From: Verrucomicrobiota bacterium JB023
GTDB lineage: Bacteria; Verrucomicrobiota; Verrucomicrobiia; Verrucomicrobiales; Akkermansiaceae
Length of the DNA: 64,000 nt
NCBI GenBank assembly: GCA_030673895.1
Contig: JAUTCR010000058.1
Coordinates: forward strand, 62,001 to 126,000
Direction: 5' to 3'
This document shows positions 46,543 through 58,708 of this stretch, piece by piece. The notes beneath the pieces are model-generated. The model saw only the letters and a list, made by a program, of their open reading frames with translations. It was not told the origin of the DNA and did no database searches. The first letter of the stretch is position 1; every line of letters starts with the position of its first letter. Both the position numbers and the translations under genes were made by a program.

Positions 46543-48165
46543 TCAGTCGCCAGCTTTCTGCAATCGCTCGACTCCCTCCCCGCGCACCTTCTGTTGCCAT
46601 TCCTCGGACTTGGCCGTCACCTTACTATCGTCTTCGTAGTACTCACGCAGCTTCTCAAGACGGGAGCGCACTTTCCCGATTGCCTCTTGGGCTGAGGGCT
46701 CTCGATAAAGATTCCGAAGCTCATCTGGATCCTCTTGCAGGTCGTAGAATTCCCATTCATCGCCGAACTGGTAGAAGTGCGTGAGCTTGTAGCGCTCCGT
46801 CCGGATTCCGTAGTGACGAGGCACCATATGGACCGAAGGATACTCATAGTAGTGATAGTAGAGTTCCTCCCGCCAGTCAGCAGGCTTCTCTCCTTGACTC
46901 TCAAAAAGAGGCAAAAGACTCCGGCCCTGCATTTCATCGGGGACCTCCACGCCCGCAGCGGACAAGAAAGTTGGCGCGTAATCCAGGTTTTGAATGAGAG
47001 CACTTGAGCGGCTACCGGCCTCAATCTTCCCGGGCCAGGCAGCGATGAAGGGCATCATCATTGACTCCTCATACATCCACCGCTTGTCGAACCAGCCATG
47101 CTCACCCACGAAGAAGCCTTGGTCAGACGAATAGATGACCAGAGTGTTCTCATCCAGCCCGAGCTCCGCGAGCTTCCCACGTAGTCGCCCGACACTCTCG
47201 TCCACGCCCTTGATGCATCGCAGGTAGTTCTTTGCGTATTGCTGGAACTTCCAGCGGACCAGCTCCTTACCCTCAAGATTGGACTCATGAAAGGCCTTGT
47301 CGCGGGGGCCATAGAAGTCCCGCCAGGCTTTGAGCTGCTCGGGCGTCATCCTTTTCATGTTTTCCCAGCCCGAGCGATCCACGCTGCGAGACGGATCGGG
47401 GTCTTCGAAGTCGGGGGTGAGATCGACGAACAGGTCGAAATGAAGCCCCATGTGGCGGTCAATTTCCGTCTCTTGATGGCGGGCCGGTGGCGCATTATCC
47501 TCGTAATCATCGAAGAGAGTCGGCGGCTCCGGGATCTCGACATCTTCGTAAAGCGAGAGATGGCGGAGCGCGGGCATCCAGTTGCGGTGGGGCGCCTTGT
47601 GCTGAACCATGAGGAGGAAAGGCTTCTCTGGATCGCGCTCCTTCTCCAGGAACTCGATCGCCCGCTCTGTCACCACATCCGTGCAATACCCAGGCACCAT
47701 CTTGCGGCCTACCGGGGTGATCAGGTCCGGATTGTAATACAGTCCCTGCCCTGGAAGCACGGCCCAATGGTCGAAGCCCTGCGGCGTCCCCTTGAGGTGG
47801 GATTTGCCAAAGAGCGCTGTCTCATAGCCAGCCTCGCGCAGGAACTTGGGAAAGATGGGCTGATTCCAATCGAATGAGTTCCCATTGTTCATGAACCCGT
47901 TCTTGTGGCTGTGCTTGCCGCTTAGGATGACCGCCCGACTTGGACCGCATATCGAGTTCGTGCAGAAACTTTTTTCAAAGACCATTCCTTCCGCCGCCAA
48001 GCGGTCAATCTCGGGAGTTGGATTCAGCGATTTGAGCCAACCTTCATAAGCACCAATTGCTTGAGGGGAATGGTCATCGCTAAAGATGAAGAGAATGTTG
48101 GGTCGCTCTCCTGCCAAGAGCTGGCCAACCAACAGCAGTGATAGAAAAATGGGTTTTTTCATCAT
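46543..48165 (-). CDS. Exported arylsulfatase-type sulfatase
   Basis: 540-residue sulfatase from ATG 48165, with signal peptide MMKKPIFLSLLLVGQLLAGE. The N-terminal metal site PNILFIFSDDHS, the formylglycine site C73-G-P-S-R followed by GKHSHKNG, and HKAPHRNW and SSDQGFFVGEHGWFDKRWMYEESM complete the catalytic set. The cysteine is converted to formylglycine by an FGE/AslB-type enzyme not in the window. The W-Y and YYHYYEYPSVHMVPRHYGIRTERYKL region near residue 440-490 resembles planctomycetal/verrucomicrobial sulfatases acting on mucin- or glycosaminoglycan-like sulfates, but the substrate is unknown. It is divergent from the large beta-strand repeat protein. Confidence 0.9.
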   Translation of the reverse strand: MMKKPIFLSLLLVGQLLAGERPNILFIFSDDHSPQAIGAYEGWLKSLNPTPEIDRLAAEGMVFEKSFCTNSICGPSRAVILSGKHSHKNGFMNNGNSFDWNQPIFPKFLREAGYETALFGKSHLKGTPQGFDHWAVLPGQGLYYNPDLITPVGRKMVPGYCTDVVTERAIEFLEKERDPEKPFLLMVQHKAPHRNWMPALRHLSLYEDVEIPEPPTLFDDYEDNAPPARHQETEIDRHMGLHFDLFVDLTPDFEDPDPSRSVDRSGWENMKRMTPEQLKAWRDFYGPRDKAFHESNLEGKELVRWKFQQYAKNYLRCIKGVDESVGRLRGKLAELGLDENTLVIYSSDQGFFVGEHGWFDKRWMYEESMMMPFIAAWPGKIEAGSRSSALIQNLDYAPTFLSAAGVEVPDEMQGRSLLPLFESQGEKPADWREELYYHYYEYPSVHMVPRHYGIRTERYKLTHFYQFGDEWEFYDLQEDPDELRNLYREPSAQEAIGKVRSRLEKLREYYEDDSKVTAKSEEWQQKVRGEGVERLQKAGD

Positions 48166-48519
48166 GAAAAGACTTCGTGGGAGACCGTTCGTTGGCAAGC
48201 CCATTTCACCAGAGCTTGCCCCATCTATCCAAGAGGGCGCCGCACACATCCTCCCGCCCTCCCGTCGTCAATCGAGGCACGAAGCTGGCCCATCGCCCAT
48301 TCTATGCGGGAGAAGCAGCGCAATGAGCCAAAGCGAACGTTTAGAAGACAGGGAGTTAGACCAACTTTTCGACAGGAGATGCATGGCATCCTTACTGCTC
48401 CCCATCGGATTGCTTCGTCTTTTGATAAAGTGCGCTTCGCAAAGAGAGTTAAGGGAAAGTGAGTCGCGTACAAAGGTCCCGAGACGAATGCTTGGAAGTC
48501 TATCCAATCCATAGCGCCC
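48166..48519. other. Divergent intergenic region
   Basis: 354 bp between the divergent sulfatase and beta-strand repeat genes. It should hold both promoters. I see no convincing operator, RNA gene or small ORF in it. Confidence 0.5.
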
Positions 48520-51500: not shown

Positions 51501-51992
51501 ATGCCGATTCGACCCTGGTACTGGCCGGAGAGAGGACAACCAGAGCGCACCGAACCATTCACTTGGATCATCAAAGACGTGCTCGCCGCCTCTTGGTGGC
51601 CGGATCCTTATGTCTTCGATATCTTCGCAGAGAACGGCGTGAAGGCCGTGGTGAATGTTTGTGAGTTTGACAACCGCGCCGACGTTCCCAAGCACTACGA
51701 CTACCACTTCATCCATGTGCCTGACTACGGAGTGCCCACGGACGCTCAGATCGAACGCTTCATTAATCTCATGGATCAGCACCATGCCGCCAAGGAGCCC
51801 GTCGTGGTTCACTGCGTCGCCGGCTGCGGACGAACCGGACAATTCATCATCGCCTGGTGTGCCAAGGCCGGCTTCATCCCGAAGGGAACAGACCCCGTCA
51901 CTTGGATCCGCGCGCGGCGTAAGTGCTGTCTGGAAACAGGTGCACAAATCGATTGTGCCAAAAGAATGATGAAGAAGTTTCGCAAGCCCTAG
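51501..51992 (+). CDS. Dual-specificity/tyrosine protein phosphatase
   Basis: 163-residue Cys-based phosphatase. The P-loop HCVAGCGRTG gives the catalytic Cys105 and Arg111, and Asp75 in HVPDYGVPT is the likely general acid, about 30 residues ahead as usual for dual-specificity phosphatases. No signal peptide, so it acts in the cytoplasm on phosphoproteins or other phosphates. It ends tail to tail with the Ser/Thr kinase gene, their stop codons sharing the four bases at 51989-51992, which suggests but does not prove that they act on the same substrates. Confidence 0.85.
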   Translation: MPIRPWYWPERGQPERTEPFTWIIKDVLAASWWPDPYVFDIFAENGVKAVVNVCEFDNRADVPKHYDYHFIHVPDYGVPTDAQIERFINLMDQHHAAKEPVVVHCVAGCGRTGQFIIAWCAKAGFIPKGTDPVTWIRARRKCCLETGAQIDCAKRMMKKFRKP

Positions 51993-54040
51993 CGATTCCC
52001 TACGAGAATCTCCTCACCAATGATCTCGAATTCGGCATTGCTTTCGATCCATCGACGCAGCTCCTTGGCTGAGTGCTTCGAGCGGTCAATCCGTATCTGG
52101 GAAAGCGAGGGCAGCTTGATTGGAGTGTCTAGCTGAACCGCGCCACACCGGGTGAGATCCAGTTCCTTGATGGCTAGTCCATTCAAGCCGACAAGATCCT
52201 GAGGCTTGGCAACCTCCAAAACCAAGGTCCGGGGCGAGAGAAAACGCAACACGCATTGCTTGGATCCTTCCTCGTTAGCCAATAGAGTCATCTCCTCCTC
52301 GGAGCGAAGATGAAGCCGGGCTTGTCTCACTTGATAGTCCAACTCGAACTCGGGGTTACCCGGGTTCAGGTAGCGCAGGAACTCCAAGATAGCCCGGTCG
52401 TAATTCCTCAGTGAGAAGCGCAGGGCACTGTCATAGGAAAGGATGCGCTCCAGGATATGGCTCTGGTTTGGCTCGATCTCCGCTGCCTCGCGGAGGAACT
52501 TCCGTAAGATGGGTAGGGAAGGCCTCCGCTGCCGACTATACTCGAACTTAGGATAAGCCCGAGCGAAGGACATGTAGGCATAGCGGCGATTACCTTTGTC
52601 CAACGGATAGCGCAAAGCCTCTTTGAAGTTGAGCTGGATCAGATTCAGGGTGAAGAGGTGATACTTCGCTGGCTCGGATTCAGGATGCAGCTCCAGGGCA
52701 TGATAGGAAAGGGCGAGCGCTTCACGCACACTCTTCATCGGGGTGTCGAAGATTCCCGTATTCTTCAATCGCCTCGCATAGCTGATGAGCGAGGCAGACA
52801 AAGCCAGCTGCTGCTGCTTCGATTCTGAGATCGTTTCACTATAAAGGTCGTTGGCTAGCTCGACCTCATTCGCATAGCGTTCGGCCAACTTCGCCTCTGC
52901 TTGGACGGATTCGTGCAGCCGGTCCACCCGTTGCACAAAGAGAGTGGTCAGCACTGTGAGAGCAATCAGAGCGAGACAAGAGATGAGCACCGGCGTGCGA
53001 TTCCGCGCGGCAAAGAGGTGAGCCTCGCGGAGAAAGTTAGGCGACTCGGCTTGCGTGGAAAATCCGTCCAAGAAGCGCTGCACCTCATCTCTCAACTCGA
53101 GAACAGATTGGTAGCGTCCATCGGGTTGTTTGGCTAATGCCTTCACACAAACCGCCCCCAGACTAACAGGGATGCGATGCTCCGGGTATTCCTCGGCCGG
53201 TTGAGCGATCTCCGCCCTCTTCGTCGCATCGAGCACCTCATCGACAGTTCCTGTGAAGGGTGCTTCGCCAGTGAGTATCGCATACAGAATGCAGCCGAGA
53301 GAGAAGACATCCGTCTGCTCGGTCTTGCGCCCTCCTTCCTCGACTTGCTCGGGAGCCATGAAGCCGGGAGAGCCCTTGATCTCGCCCAAGAGAGTCACGT
53401 TGGCTGCGGCTTCGCCATCGAGGCTCATGCCATCTTTCTCCTCGGCTAGGCGTCTCCCCAGGCCCCAGTCGCACAGCAGGACTTCGCCGTATTTGTCAGC
53501 CTGGATATTCTCAGGCTTCAGGTCGAGATGGAGAATTCCCCGGGAATGCGCGTAAGATACCGCATCACAGACCTTGAGGAAAATCTTGAGCAGCTCTCGC
53601 AGACTACGCTCCGGCGCGGCGATGAGGTCTGCCAGCGTGGTATTGCCCTTGAGATCCATGGTGAAGAAGGGGCGTCCGCGCGAATCCACCCCCACATCAT
53701 GAACATTGATAATGTTGGGATGATTCAAGGATGAGGTGAGCCAAGCTTCGTTCACCAGTAGATCGTAGAAATCCTGATCCCGATCAGCCCGCAGTCGAGC
53801 CATGGCCACCCAGCGCCGCGCGCGGTTGTCGTAGGCCCGATAGACCTCCTTCAGCCCCCCCTTACCCAGAAGGTGGAAGTCCTGATACCGGGCCTCGATA
53901 TCCCGTAATCCGGCATAGGAAGGGCACAACACCTCGATCCCGTCTTGGTCGAGATTCATCGCCTCGTGGTAGGCTGCGATGAGACGATGGTCGCTCGGAC
54001 TTCGCTCTTGACCCTTGCTCTGATCCAGCGGCCGCCTCAT
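51989..54040 (-). CDS. Membrane Ser/Thr protein kinase with WNK-like lysine position
   Basis: 683-residue kinase. The kinase domain is at about residues 52-320: glycine loop GKGGLKEVY (59-67), Glu98 in helix C (VNEAW), catalytic loop HLDLKPEN (171-178), metal-binding DWG (191-193) and APE (230-232). The beta-3 VAxK motif is VAMA (residues 78-81), so the usual lysine is absent, but Lys64 in the glycine loop sits where WNK kinases have their catalytic lysine. One transmembrane helix follows near 353-372, then a long C-terminal region with helical repeats and leucine-rich-like strands (residues 380-683). The gene overlaps the ECF sigma factor gene by 4 bp (ATGA), so they are coupled. Confidence 0.88.
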   Translation of the reverse strand: MRRPLDQSKGQERSPSDHRLIAAYHEAMNLDQDGIEVLCPSYAGLRDIEARYQDFHLLGKGGLKEVYRAYDNRARRWVAMARLRADRDQDFYDLLVNEAWLTSSLNHPNIINVHDVGVDSRGRPFFTMDLKGNTTLADLIAAPERSLRELLKIFLKVCDAVSYAHSRGILHLDLKPENIQADKYGEVLLCDWGLGRRLAEEKDGMSLDGEAAANVTLLGEIKGSPGFMAPEQVEEGGRKTEQTDVFSLGCILYAILTGEAPFTGTVDEVLDATKRAEIAQPAEEYPEHRIPVSLGAVCVKALAKQPDGRYQSVLELRDEVQRFLDGFSTQAESPNFLREAHLFAARNRTPVLISCLALIALTVLTTLFVQRVDRLHESVQAEAKLAERYANEVELANDLYSETISESKQQQLALSASLISYARRLKNTGIFDTPMKSVREALALSYHALELHPESEPAKYHLFTLNLIQLNFKEALRYPLDKGNRRYAYMSFARAYPKFEYSRQRRPSLPILRKFLREAAEIEPNQSHILERILSYDSALRFSLRNYDRAILEFLRYLNPGNPEFELDYQVRQARLHLRSEEEMTLLANEEGSKQCVLRFLSPRTLVLEVAKPQDLVGLNGLAIKELDLTRCGAVQLDTPIKLPSLSQIRIDRSKHSAKELRRWIESNAEFEIIGEEILVGNR

Positions 54041-54630
54041 CTCTCCAACTCGGCGGACAGTTGCCGGATCTCCTGATAGAGCCTCCGCTTCACCCGCTTC
54101 TTCAGGGTATAGACGGTGGCAATTGAGAGACCGGTACGCTCGGCAATGGCTGCGGCCGGAAGGCCGTCCAAACCAAGCTCGAAGACTTCAACCGCTTGCC
54201 CTTGAAACGCTTCGCGGACCCTTTCCATCGCGAGCCCCGCGACATAGGCCGCCCACTCTCTTTCGATGATTTGCTCGATTTCCGGGACTTCGATCAGGCC
54301 CCTGCGATTGCTTTCATCGACCATGCGATCGAGACAGCGATTCGCGGCGTATTTCTTCCTGAGGTAAGTGTTGGCCTTGTTCCGGATCATCTTACTTAGC
54401 CACGTCCGGAAGCCGGCCCGCTCGCGATCGTAGCGGGGCAGATACCGGGCGAGCGTGATGAGGATCTGCTGAGTCAGGTCGTCGACATCCCTCTCCGGGA
54501 TACCGACTTGGTTCAGAACACAGTAGATGAAGCGCCGATATTGACAGACCAGCTCTTCCCAAGCGGCATTGTCCGCTGGGTCAGTGGCTCTTTGGAGGAG
54601 GGAATAACGGGTTTCATAGGTCGTGATCAT
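54037..54630 (-). CDS. ECF-family RNA polymerase sigma factor
   Basis: 197-residue ECF sigma factor. Region 2 includes WEELVCQYRRFIYCVLNQVG and the DVDDLTQQILITL segment typical of sigma 2; region 4 at the C terminus has LGLDGLPAAAIAERTGLSIATVYTLKKRVKRRL, a clear helix-turn-helix. No anti-sigma domain is attached. It is coupled by 4-bp overlap to the Ser/Thr kinase, an arrangement known for kinase-linked ECF groups in this phylum and in Planctomycetes. Repeats of TTGGGGA lie just upstream, at 54636-54688. Confidence 0.9.
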   Translation of the reverse strand: MITTYETRYSLLQRATDPADNAAWEELVCQYRRFIYCVLNQVGIPERDVDDLTQQILITLARYLPRYDRERAGFRTWLSKMIRNKANTYLRKKYAANRCLDRMVDESNRRGLIEVPEIEQIIEREWAAYVAGLAMERVREAFQGQAVEVFELGLDGLPAAAIAERTGLSIATVYTLKKRVKRRLYQEIRQLSAELER

Positions 54631-54773: not shown

Positions 54774-57700
54774 TCAATAGTCCACAGCCTCGATCCACTC
54801 GAGATCATCCCACCATCCGGTATCATTGCCCACGGCTTCCCCGGGCGTGGTGCGGCCACTGGTCACAATCTCGGTGATTTTATCTTCCAGCAGAGCAGCA
54901 AGCCGCGCGTTGGCACCGTAAACATTCTGACTCTCCGTGGGGTCACTGGCGAGGTGATAGAGCTCATAGCCGCTCCCTTCATGTGGCATGATGAGCTTCC
55001 ATTCGCCGTCACGGATCGCGAAGCGGCCGCTGAAGGAGTGATGTATCAGGGGCAAGCGCTCAGGCGCCGCGCTCTCATCACGGAGAACCTCATAGAAGCT
55101 CACACTGTCTTCGCCGCTCTGCTCATCGAGGTCCACCCCCAACATCTCCGCACAGGTCGCCAGCAGATCCGTCTGACAGATTGGTTGATCCCAAGATCGT
55201 CCGGGGCGATCGATCCCCGCTGGCCAGCGCACAACGAAGGGAACCCGATGCCCTCCCTCGTAGATATCCCTCTTCCCTCCCCGGTAAATGCCCGCGCTAT
55301 CATGCTCGTAGGTTGTCACCCTCGCCTTGTAAGTGGTCTCCGGTCCATTATCACTACTGACAATCACCATCGTATTGTTCGCCAGGCCGTTCTCATCGAG
55401 GTAGTCGAGCACGCGCCCCATATGATAATCCGTCTCCATCATGAAGTCCCCGTAAGCACCAGCCTCACTAAGCCCCAGAAAATCCTCGCGCGGAATCACT
55501 GGCTTGTGGGGTGAGGTGTATGGGATGTAGATGAAGAAAGGGCGCCCTGCCTGCGCATCATCGACTCGTCCCTCCATCCACTCGAGGGCCTCATCAGTGA
55601 AGCGCGTGAGGCAAAGCACATCATCGAAGTCAGGCGCTGCTTCCAAACCACTCGACTGGTTGTAGGGAGGGGTGATCCGGTAATCACTGAAGACGCCGGG
55701 GAGACCATTCGGCTTCTTGGAAGTGAACTGGGTCGGATTGACTGGAGTGAAGCGCCCTTCGATCCAAGCCAAATAGCCAAAGTTCATCGACGCGGGTATT
55801 CCGTAAAAGTGGTCGAATCCCACGTCCAAGGGCATGTCGTCGATCGGCTGGGAGAAGTCCCGGTTCCCATTCGTCCCCGGGATATCCATGCCCAGATGCC
55901 ACTTGCCAACCATGGCCGTGGCGTATCCCTGACTCTTTAGCAAGGAAGCCAAAGTCATTCGCTCATCCGGGATGAGAGCCGGATCGTCAGAGCCCAGCAC
56001 ATTGGTCTTTAGTGAAGTGCGCCAGCAATAGCGGCCCGTCAGCAAGCCATAGCGAGAGGGCGTGCAGACCGTATCGGAGGAATGAGCGTCCGTGAAGTTG
56101 ATACCTTGGGCAGCCAGGCGATCATGGTGCGGGGTGGGAAACTTCGTCTCGGGATTATTGGCCCCCATATCACCGTAGCCTTGGTCGTCGGTGTAAAAGA
56201 GGACGATATTGGGACGCCCTCGAATCTCGGTCCGTGAGTTGACTTTCACAAACATCGAGGAATCGTCGCTGGCGACCTGATAGCGAGCCTTCTCGTAGTC
56301 TCCATCTACTGGACTTGCCGTATTTTCGGTCAAGAAACCTAGGAAAGGTTGCCAGCTCTCCAAGTCCGCGGACACGAGCAGCTCATACCCGACCCCTGCC
56401 TTACGCTGGCGGCGAAAGGAAAGCTCCAATGAGGAATCGATCTCAATTTGCGGAATCGAGCCTTGTTCATTCATCAGGCTCCCGAAGGCTTGCTCAACGA
56501 TATTAGGGAACTGATCGCCATCGCTATCATCGAGGCCCCCTTCGCCCAAATGACCGAAAGCAGTCATCTCCAGCGCATCCAGCAGGCCGTCCTCGTCACC
56601 ATCCTGTCCGCTGGGCGTGATTTCTCCGTCAAGAGGGTTCGACAAGGCGGCTAGCTCCGCTCCATCCGGGAAGCCATCCTCATCACTATCCGGCAATAAT
56701 GGATCGGTCCTGAAGGTGACTAATTCGTCGAGGTCATTGAGAAAATCATCATCGCTATCCGCATCTCTGGGGTCCGTCCGATAGTGACGAACTTCGGCGA
56801 AGTCATCCAAGCCATCCCGGTCCGAATCCCTTTCCCCCGCGAGAGTATTCAGATTGAACTCCTCGAAATTGCTTAATCCATCTCCGTCCAAATCAGCATC
56901 ACGATCCGTCGCGTCCGCAGGGTCGAGACCATTGGCCAGCTCCCACTCGTCCAGCATCCCGTCATGATCTCCATCAACGATCACCGGCTCAATCGGGTAG
57001 TAGCCAGCCACTTGGAAGGCGTCCATTGTCACTGCCGTCCCTGCCTCTGCTTCTTGCTCGTAAGTCATGGCTGCGAAGATGTTATTGTCTCCCGAAATCA
57101 CCGAAAAATCGAAGACCTCCACCCATCCTCCATTCGCGGCAAGACCATTGCCCACGCCGTCCAGCCGGGCGCTCCAGCCTCCCTCGTCAAGCTCAAGCGT
57201 AGCGGAGTAATCATCTTGAAAACTAGACAGGCCGTAGCTCCCCAAGGAGCCCAAAACCTGCTCATCCCCACTAGAATTATGGTAGACCAAGTCAACCTCA
57301 CCCTCGAGAAAGCGCAGCCCCAGAGACCAACCATTGAAAGGACCATCCCGATCCGCCTGATACCAAAACTCAGTTCGCCCCCCTTGGATACCTAGCCAAT
57401 GCCCCCGCCCGCTTGGTCCCCCGTCCTCGTCCACGATGGTTTCCATGGAGGCCGTGACCTCAAATCTCTGAAAACTCGACCCATCAAAGCTTCCCTGACT
57501 CACCGCTCCCACCACTCCAGAGGCGTCCGGCTCATCCGAGGTCATCGTCGCTCTCCCCAGCGCATTGTCCCACGCCGGCGCACCTATCCCGTTGGAGAGA
57601 AGAGTGAATTCCTCCTGGAGGCCGTCATCCACTTGATTGAATGAGGCAGCGATCAGCAGCTCGGGCGCGACAGGATCCCCAGCGACCACAATCGACCCCA

Positions 57701-58442
57701 TATCCAGTATGGTGCCCGCCTCATTGGCTTGCTGATAGGTCGCCGCCGCATGGATGGTGCTATCCGCAGCCAACGTCGCGTAGTCGAAGGCCGCCGGCCA
57801 TGCACCTTGCGCGTCGACCGCTCCATCAATACCGGTCAGACAGACCTGCCACCCATCGGAGGCGAAGCGGAAAGCAACGGTGTAGCCATTCTGCAGACTC
57901 GTGAGCGTGTAAGTCCCCAGCGACGCAATCGTGATCTCATTCCCACTAGTGTTGTCGTAGACCAAATTCAGCGACCCGGCGAGATAGCGGATCCCCACCG
58001 CCCAGCCATCGACTGCGCCCTGCCGTTGCGCGTTGTTCCAAAGCTCCAGATCCGTCCCTTGCAGGCCGGCCCAATGCCCGTTGTTGGTCGGTTGCCCATC
58101 GGGATCAGCGATGCGGTCGATCGTGAAAGTTGCCGTAATGGCGGTGAAGGAGGACCCATCAAAGGTGGCTTCGCTCACACATCCCACCGTTCCACTGGAT
58201 GACTCGTTGGCCGACATGGTGGCCTCCCCTGTTTCGTTATCCCAAGCGGGCGACCCGGCTCCGTTGGTCAAGAGCGTGAAAGTCTCTGCCAGTCCATCGT
58301 CTGTGCCGTTGAAGGTGGCCGTGATGAGAGGCACTTCCGCCGGAGGAAGAGGTGTCGCTTCGACGGCTTGCGGCATCGCCGCGAAGGCCAGGCAAAACAG
58401 CCAGCTCAGACCCGGCTTTCGAATGGTAGTGATGAGGCTCAT
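54774..58442 (-). CDS. Exported sulfatase fused to tandem lectin-like and calcium-repeat domains
   Basis: 1222-residue exported protein from ATG 58442 (signal peptide to about residue 28). Residues 38-260 and 262-482 are a tandem repeat of a ~223-residue lectin-like domain (both start with FN...DDGL.E.FTLL.NG..APAWDN-type sequence). Residues 488-655 hold thrombospondin type 3-like calcium repeats (DGDGLSNFEEF, DSDRDGLDDFAEV). Residues about 660-738 are the YELLVSADLESW module, which elsewhere in the window is C-terminal. The sulfatase follows: PNIVLFYTDDQGYGDMG, formylglycine site C793-T-P-S-R with GLLTGRYCWR, and VGKWHLGM. An upstream in-frame start at 58583 is rejected because it precedes the signal peptide. 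Acts on a sulfated polysaccharide; substrate unknown. Confidence 0.88.
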   Translation of the reverse strand: MSLITTIRKPGLSWLFCLAFAAMPQAVEATPLPPAEVPLITATFNGTDDGLAETFTLLTNGAGSPAWDNETGEATMSANESSSGTVGCVSEATFDGSSFTAITATFTIDRIADPDGQPTNNGHWAGLQGTDLELWNNAQRQGAVDGWAVGIRYLAGSLNLVYDNTSGNEITIASLGTYTLTSLQNGYTVAFRFASDGWQVCLTGIDGAVDAQGAWPAAFDYATLAADSTIHAAATYQQANEAGTILDMGSIVVAGDPVAPELLIAASFNQVDDGLQEEFTLLSNGIGAPAWDNALGRATMTSDEPDASGVVGAVSQGSFDGSSFQRFEVTASMETIVDEDGGPSGRGHWLGIQGGRTEFWYQADRDGPFNGWSLGLRFLEGEVDLVYHNSSGDEQVLGSLGSYGLSSFQDDYSATLELDEGGWSARLDGVGNGLAANGGWVEVFDFSVISGDNNIFAAMTYEQEAEAGTAVTMDAFQVAGYYPIEPVIVDGDHDGMLDEWELANGLDPADATDRDADLDGDGLSNFEEFNLNTLAGERDSDRDGLDDFAEVRHYRTDPRDADSDDDFLNDLDELVTFRTDPLLPDSDEDGFPDGAELAALSNPLDGEITPSGQDGDEDGLLDALEMTAFGHLGEGGLDDSDGDQFPNIVEQAFGSLMNEQGSIPQIEIDSSLELSFRRQRKAGVGYELLVSADLESWQPFLGFLTENTASPVDGDYEKARYQVASDDSSMFVKVNSRTEIRGRPNIVLFYTDDQGYGDMGANNPETKFPTPHHDRLAAQGINFTDAHSSDTVCTPSRYGLLTGRYCWRTSLKTNVLGSDDPALIPDERMTLASLLKSQGYATAMVGKWHLGMDIPGTNGNRDFSQPIDDMPLDVGFDHFYGIPASMNFGYLAWIEGRFTPVNPTQFTSKKPNGLPGVFSDYRITPPYNQSSGLEAAPDFDDVLCLTRFTDEALEWMEGRVDDAQAGRPFFIYIPYTSPHKPVIPREDFLGLSEAGAYGDFMMETDYHMGRVLDYLDENGLANNTMVIVSSDNGPETTYKARVTTYEHDSAGIYRGGKRDIYEGGHRVPFVVRWPAGIDRPGRSWDQPICQTDLLATCAEMLGVDLDEQSGEDSVSFYEVLRDESAAPERLPLIHHSFSGRFAIRDGEWKLIMPHEGSGYELYHLASDPTESQNVYGANARLAALLEDKITEIVTSGRTTPGEAVGNDTGWWDDLEWIEAVDY

Positions 58443-58708
58443 GGGGTGAAGCGAAGAGGCATCGGGATGGAAGGAGCAGCGAGCGAACCGCAGGTTCTTT
58501 GCCCGCGGCAAGGGCGAAGGACGCCCTCGAAAAAGCGGCGGGAAAAGGCGGATGGAAGCTTGGCAAAGAGAGCGAAGGAGCACGGCGATAGTGAGGATTT
58601 TCAGCCGGGCGATAGTTGCCGACCTTATCCTATATACGCGCCTGGATCGAATCTTGGGACAGCCCGGAGAGATTCCGGGCTTCCCTTCCCTGGCCCCTTA
58701 GCCTGAGG

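Follow-up and report, generated by a model that had tools for sequence, protein, structure and literature searches.

A WNK-like lysine relocation in a family of Hanks-type kinases from Verrucomicrobiota and neighbouring PVC bacteria, with a member encoded beside an ECF σ factor

The WNK kinases have been called the only functional ePK family that lacks K72 (PMC1821047), and WNK1 needs Lys233 for catalysis (PMC1821047; PMC4718504). The described bacterial systems closest to the one considered here include the EcfP/PknT and EcfK/PknS pairs, in which kinase-dependent activation of the adjoining ECF σ factor is known (PMC8999054; PMC13147305). The gene pair analyzed here lies in a 64,000-nucleotide stretch of the genome of Verrucomicrobiota bacterium JB023 (hereafter the window) and comprises a kinase whose β-3 strand lacks the canonical lysine while its ATP loop has gained one, and an ECF σ factor gene immediately upstream (Table 1).

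The window kinase belongs with the Hanks-type (PknB-like) enzymes by its kinase fold and by its match to the Pkinase model over residues 52-304 (131.8 bits against a cut-off of 31.7), and it departs from them at the VAIK lysine, where it carries Ala81. The sequence-only reading had described a VAMA β-3 strand without this lysine, a lysine within the loop GKGGLKEVY, and intact Glu98, HLDLKPEN, DWG and APE elements; a residue check of the translation agrees on each (Val78-Ala79-Met80-Ala81 in β-3; CDWG at 190-193). It also reveals that the HRD arginine is lost (HLD), which had gone unmentioned. The likeness to WNK kinases that the same reading had seen at both the loop and β-3 is borne out by an hhalign comparison of a 14-member family profile with WNK1, in which LGKGGLKEVY lies over IGRGSFKTVY and VAMARL over VAWCEL with no gaps, so that Lys64 is paired with WNK1 Lys233 and Ala81 with WNK1 Cys250. 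Lys64 thus occupies the third-glycine position of the ATP loop, and the kinase has the combination that marks the WNK family, a lysine at that glycine and none in β-3. Two paralogues in the same genome (47% and 31% identical) show the same swap, and the remaining well-matching kinases of this genome retain the canonical lysine.

Table 1. Positions in the window of the kinase, its sequence elements and the partner σ factor gene
Feature	Position	Strand	Basis
ECF σ factor, 197 aa, upstream partner	54037-54630	-	TIGR02937 E 3e-19; Sigma70_r2, r4_2
Transmembrane Ser/Thr kinase, relocated lysine, 683 aa	51989..54040	-	ORF; PF00069 E 3.9e-38
Kinase domain, residues 45-345	53006..53908	-	AlphaFold2 pLDDT 91.1, pTM 0.89; PDB match PknB
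Glycine loop GKGGLKEVY, residues 59-67	53840..53866	-	Translation; gapless alignment to WNK1 GRGSFKTVY
Lys64, proposed relocated catalytic lysine (WNK1 Lys233 / PKA Gly55 column)	53849..53851	-	180/180; Lys in 0/60 canonical
β-3 VAMA, residues 78-81, Ala81 at VAIK lysine position	53798..53809	-	Ala 178, Gly 1, Val 1 of 180
Glu98, helix C glutamate, predicted Lys64 partner	53747..53749	-	Invariant 180/180
Catalytic loop HLDLKPEN, residues 171-178, non-RD	53507..53530	-	Asp173 and Asn178 invariant 180/180; Leu172 118/124
Gln180, PKA Leu173 position beneath adenine	53501..53503	-	Polar in relocated-lysine family
CDWG, residues 190-193, Mg-binding, DFG equivalent	53462..53473	-	Asp191 invariant 180/180
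Predicted single transmembrane helix, residues 350-370	52931..52993	-	Hydrophobic by inspection; first long helix of C-terminal model
Predicted extracytoplasmic sensor region at the C terminus (coiled stalk, then TPR-like helices, then LRR-like end)	51992..52930	-	AlphaFold2 pLDDT 94.0

The distribution of this trait was followed by profile searches of 388 Verrucomicrobiota genomes, plus a motif scan of a genome collection, and removal of duplicates left 240 distinct kinase domains. By loop and β-3 residue, 178 of these are Lys/Ala, one is Lys/Gly, one is Lys/Val, and the other 60 are canonical relatives that have the β-3 lysine with Gly, Ala or Ser in the loop; the two lysines were found together in none of the 240. 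The survey for a loop lysine without a β-3 lysine that the sequence-only reading had called for is therefore strongly positive (180 of 240 domains). Throughout the 180 swapped domains the αC glutamate (Glu98), the HxD aspartate (Asp173), the asparagine (Asn178) and the DxG aspartate (Asp191) are kept, and Lys64 is the sole conserved lysine of the N-lobe. Its fixation in all 180 swapped domains, set against its absence from the 60 related kinases, puts the pattern far beyond chance; the accompanying Fisher p of 4e-58 ignores shared descent and is not to be read as a significance level. Because the collection scan, which gave 80 named loci, was seeded on the HLDLKP and CDW motifs, those two are over-represented by design; the loop and β-3 were not used as patterns, so the swap itself was not selected for by them.

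Matches at E<=1e-60 were present in 155 of the 388 genomes, which overstates the spread if anything, since canonical kinases are found among the weaker matches; the figure is thus an upper bound. The swap was found across Verrucomicrobiae, Kiritimatiellia and Lentisphaeria, and in what was found the family seems confined to Verrucomicrobiota and neighbouring PVC bacteria. A whole-genome profile search of Lentisphaera marina (G486) returned 59 matches, 52 of them swapped (51 Lys/Ala and one Lys/Val). The latter (L261, G486:C2:607551-608623), which is the only Lys/Val member of the family, keeps the loop lysine in front of a degenerate β-3 strand, ELIMVKPK, with Val at the lysine position. In Pontiella sulfatireligans (G487) there were 24 profile matches, at least one of them canonical, and both genomes thus show large expansions. 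Searches of the accessible literature, which did not extend to the 2025 atlas of bSTKs that PMC12599244 cites, found no bacterial WNK-type family; as far as that literature shows, this large relocated-lysine family is previously unreported.

An AlphaFold2 model of the kinase domain, built from a 75-sequence alignment, places Lys64 first in β-2, Ala81 in β-3 and Glu98 in helix C. Among the matches listed, the closest solved structures are those of Mycobacterium tuberculosis PknB, an active kinase (34% identity, Z 32.1, and an rmsd of 1.8 across 256 residues); WNK entries were absent among the 50 PDB entries listed by VIA-align, which has no bearing either way. Val66, two residues after Lys64, corresponds to PKA Val57, which we take from established kinase structure to be the adenine-capping Val/Ile, and, since Lys64 lies two residues before it on a β strand, its own side chain would be expected to point towards the nucleotide as well. 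We consider it highly probable that the window kinase is an active, membrane-anchored Hanks-type enzyme that uses Lys64 as its catalytic lysine, that has reached the WNK solution independently, and that couples C-terminal sensing to gating of the ECF σ factor. In such an enzyme the β-3 lysine would have given way to alanine, and Lys64, at the start of β-2, would contact the α and β phosphates of ATP and pair with Glu98.

It could instead be argued that loss of the β-3 lysine ended catalysis and that the domain is now a pseudokinase that only scaffolds the σ factor or acts as its allosteric partner. That loss is indeed among the usual criteria for a bacterial pseudokinase (PMC12599244), and the change from HRD to HLD points the same way, but the metal-binding and phosphotransfer residues are invariant in 180 domains whose identity with the window kinase domain falls to about 34%, the decay of aspartates that typifies pseudokinases is seen in none of them, and the lysine is fixed at the sole alternative position known to rescue catalysis. 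An invariant relocated lysine together with an otherwise intact catalytic site is strong evidence of purifying selection, as expected of an active enzyme but not of a pseudokinase; we regard catalytic death as improbable. A different enzyme could also be imagined in which the basic neighbour in β-3 (Arg82 in the window kinase, Lys in some paralogues) substitutes for the missing lysine because the strand has slipped by one residue. Of 124 family members, 55 do have a basic residue at position 82 (39 Arg, 16 Lys), yet elsewhere in the family Ile, Val, Glu, Thr, Leu, Met and others occur there, the alignment of the strand is gapless, and on a regular strand the side chain would point away from the nucleotide. 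Its variability across the 124 members effectively rules out residue 82 as the replacement, and the slip has very little chance of being right. The proposal of the sequence-only reading that this is a relocation rather than pseudokinase decay is supported by the survey: none of the 180 domains departs from Lys64 or from the residues for metal binding and catalysis, while residue 82 varies freely.

Since the same two positions are changed in WNK kinases, it is also necessary to consider whether the family descends by horizontal transfer from a eukaryotic WNK kinase. Phylogenetic analysis was performed on a 40-row alignment in which the loop and β-3 columns were masked and PDB-verified PKA, PAK1, CDK2 and WNK1 were included. 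In this tree the relocated-lysine family forms one clade (89/90), and its sister canonical kinases (L175, L176 and L179) have GGMG and VAMK and already carry HLD. The nesting of the family beside canonical GGMG/VAMK/HLD kinases shows the direction of change, and, with WNK1 placed apart, it indicates that the swap from G55/K72 to K55/A72 (PKA numbering) took place inside bacteria, independently of WNK. With WNK1 as the lone eukaryotic row its placement was unresolved and a clade of the family with WNK1 was not rejected (p-AU 0.85), but once PKA, PAK1 and CDK2 were added WNK1 joined the eukaryotic kinases (100/98) and the family+WNK1 clade was rejected (p-AU 0.02), in a tree with long branches and only four eukaryotic rows. 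The best solved relatives among the matches listed are bacterial PknB structures, and the DLG leucine, the HRD and the β-3 cysteine of WNK are all absent from the family. With common descent rejected by this tree, transfer from a eukaryote is hardly credible, the relocation is apparently convergent, and the resemblance to WNK would be one of chemistry rather than descent.

The number of times that the swap arose within bacteria is less sharply defined. The family is also one clade in a 95-row tree (with row L091 reclassified), and in a 76-row tree a canonical trio falls between two swapped kinases (L173 and L174) and the remaining family, where a single clade is not rejected (p-AU 0.49). These two Lys/Ala kinases have HRD rather than HLD and the loop QPLGAGGEKE, and they might represent a second origin. 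A single origin of the swap is likely, as judged from these trees, but not proven.

The window ECF gene overlaps the start of the kinase gene by 4 bp, which agrees with the earlier suggestion that the kinase is coupled to an ECF σ factor; the two genes adjoin within one operon, as in STK-linked ECF systems generally. Across the family, an ECF gene lies on the same strand within 400 bp upstream at 60 of 124 loci, or 60 of 111 when 13 others that are too short are set aside, so that an adjacent ECF gene is absent at about half of the assessable loci. The ECF43 group is recognized by a region 2.2 that lacks DxxD and carries a conserved Thr, and the window σ factor lies outside it: the acidic DVDD of region 2.2 is retained, the conserved phospho-Thr is absent, and Thr53, near this region, is Ala, Val, Ser, Thr or Arg in homologues. 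With DVDD kept and the phospho-Thr absent, the mechanism by which EcfP is activated cannot be carried over to this pair, leaving EcfP-type σ activation unsupported, and any phosphosite must differ from that of the known ECF pairs. The best conserved candidate sites in the partner ECF proteins are Thr7 (60 of 60) and Ser/Thr10 (59 of 60). The ECF protein is the obvious client of the window kinase, and we infer that it is the substrate; in about half of the family, the kinase most likely acts on an ECF protein encoded directly upstream in this way.

The predicted arrangement of the protein, a kinase domain followed by a single membrane helix and a C-terminal region, would place the latter outside the cytoplasm. 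Pfam searches of 37 homologues found LRR_4 in nine and TPR families in several, and the TPR matches of the C-terminal region in PDB were weak, none at E<=0.001. The natural reading of this model would be an outside sensor that drives an inside kinase. In the proposed mechanism, the stalk, TPR and LRR elements would probably sense something beyond the membrane, the kinase would probably phosphorylate or otherwise gate the ECF σ factor encoded upstream in the same operon, and the σ factor would then switch on a local regulon.

The genes around the pair offer one suggestion for that output. The ECF-kinase pair is flanked by sulfatase genes (46543-48249 and 54774-58583), and a proximity test in L. 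marina, which has 59 strong sulfatase genes, found 17 of the 52 family kinases no more than 8 kb from one of them. Circular shifts predict 7.6, and 0 of 2000 shifts gave a count as high as 17, in a test that tried four distances in one genome. A simple count of sulfatase density around family loci gave no excess over a rough background. On the strength of the L. marina proximity and the flanking sulfatases of the window, control of sulfated-polysaccharide use is a plausible output, and only a lead. The larger flanking gene (54774-58583, minus strand) encodes 1269 aa with a long N-terminal non-sulfatase region and a C-terminal sulfatase domain (PF00884, residues 791-1150). At the other end, a tyrosine/dual-specificity-like phosphatase gene (51501-51992, plus strand) meets the kinase gene tail-to-tail, with a 4-bp overlap at the kinase end. 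This phosphatase was considered as a conserved partner and set aside, as no homologue lies beside any other fetched family kinase.

The nucleotide site differs from that of the canonical relatives at more than the two lysine positions. Positions 64, 81 and 180 best separate the family from its relatives. At residue 180, 161 of the 180 family domains have Gln, Arg, His or Asn, whereas every one of the 60 canonical domains has Met or Leu; the polar adenine floor is a further new feature of the family. Position 190, directly before DWG, is often Cys, and the changes at 180 and 190 suggest that the nucleotide site has been reworked more widely. With a polar position 180 and without the HRD arginine, the pocket has changed beyond the lysine, and binding of a ligand other than ATP is conceivable in principle. 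It is possible, though doubtful, that the move of the lysine is one part of a remodelled pocket (Lys64, Ala81, polar 180, often Cys190) that has gained some novel property, for instance a changed preference among nucleotides or the sensing of an ion or metabolite, and that each genome would have put to use in dozens of kinase switches working in parallel; an ion or metabolite may then be sensed directly in the space vacated by the β-3 lysine, in a manner that parallels the chloride sensing of WNK but is chemically unlike it. In WNK1, the L369F mutant of the DLG motif is chloride-insensitive (PMC13397483), and this chloride-site leucine is replaced by Trp192 in 123 of 124 family members, so that WNK-style chloride sensing is not expected.

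If Lys64 acts as proposed, these bacteria would supply a second, independent case (about 180 sequences) of functional-type kinases without a β-3 lysine. Because close canonical relatives preserve the ancestral state, how a catalytic lysine moves can be tested by sequence comparison and mutagenesis. A survey of PVC bacteria called functional kinases by a K-D-D residue filter (PMC11032199); such filters would wrongly discard relocated-lysine kinases, which number 52 in one Lentisphaera genome, and enzymes that standard annotation would call dead are probably active.

Comparison with described kinases places these traits in context. The family shares with WNK kinases (WNK1 Lys233; eukaryotes) the move of the β-3 lysine to the third loop glycine and the retention of the αC Glu, HxD Asp, Asn and DxG Asp (PMC4718504). 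It differs in its independent origin, in having Ala in place of Cys at β-3, in carrying DWG and HLD where WNK has DLG and HRD, and in a polar adenine floor, a transmembrane architecture with a sensor region, and an ECF operon. With PknB-type bacterial Hanks kinases it has in common the fold, the overall motifs and the order of kinase domain then transmembrane helix, but it has lost the β-3 lysine, gained the loop lysine and acquired a polar residue 180. As in the ECF43-STPK pairs (EcfP/PknT and EcfK/PknS), a transmembrane kinase gene adjoins a dedicated ECF gene, whereas the window pair keeps an acidic region 2.2, has no conserved phospho-Thr and relies on a different kinase chemistry.

Other kinase-like proteins have undergone partly similar changes. 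In CAK-chloro (Arg55/Met72) the positive charge has likewise shifted from position 72 to 55 (PMC1821047), but the residue is Arg rather than Lys, the αC Glu is lost, and the protein belongs to another branch of the kinase-like superfamily. The DLHK, DYD and ActPs2 pseudokinase families have also lost the β-3 lysine, with compensating basic residues proposed, that of DLHK on β-2 (PMC12599244); these families differ in their use of Arg and in a degraded DFG or HRD or an absent αC Glu. A clean replacement by a loop lysine with the other motifs intact, as in the relocated-lysine family, has been described for none of the three.
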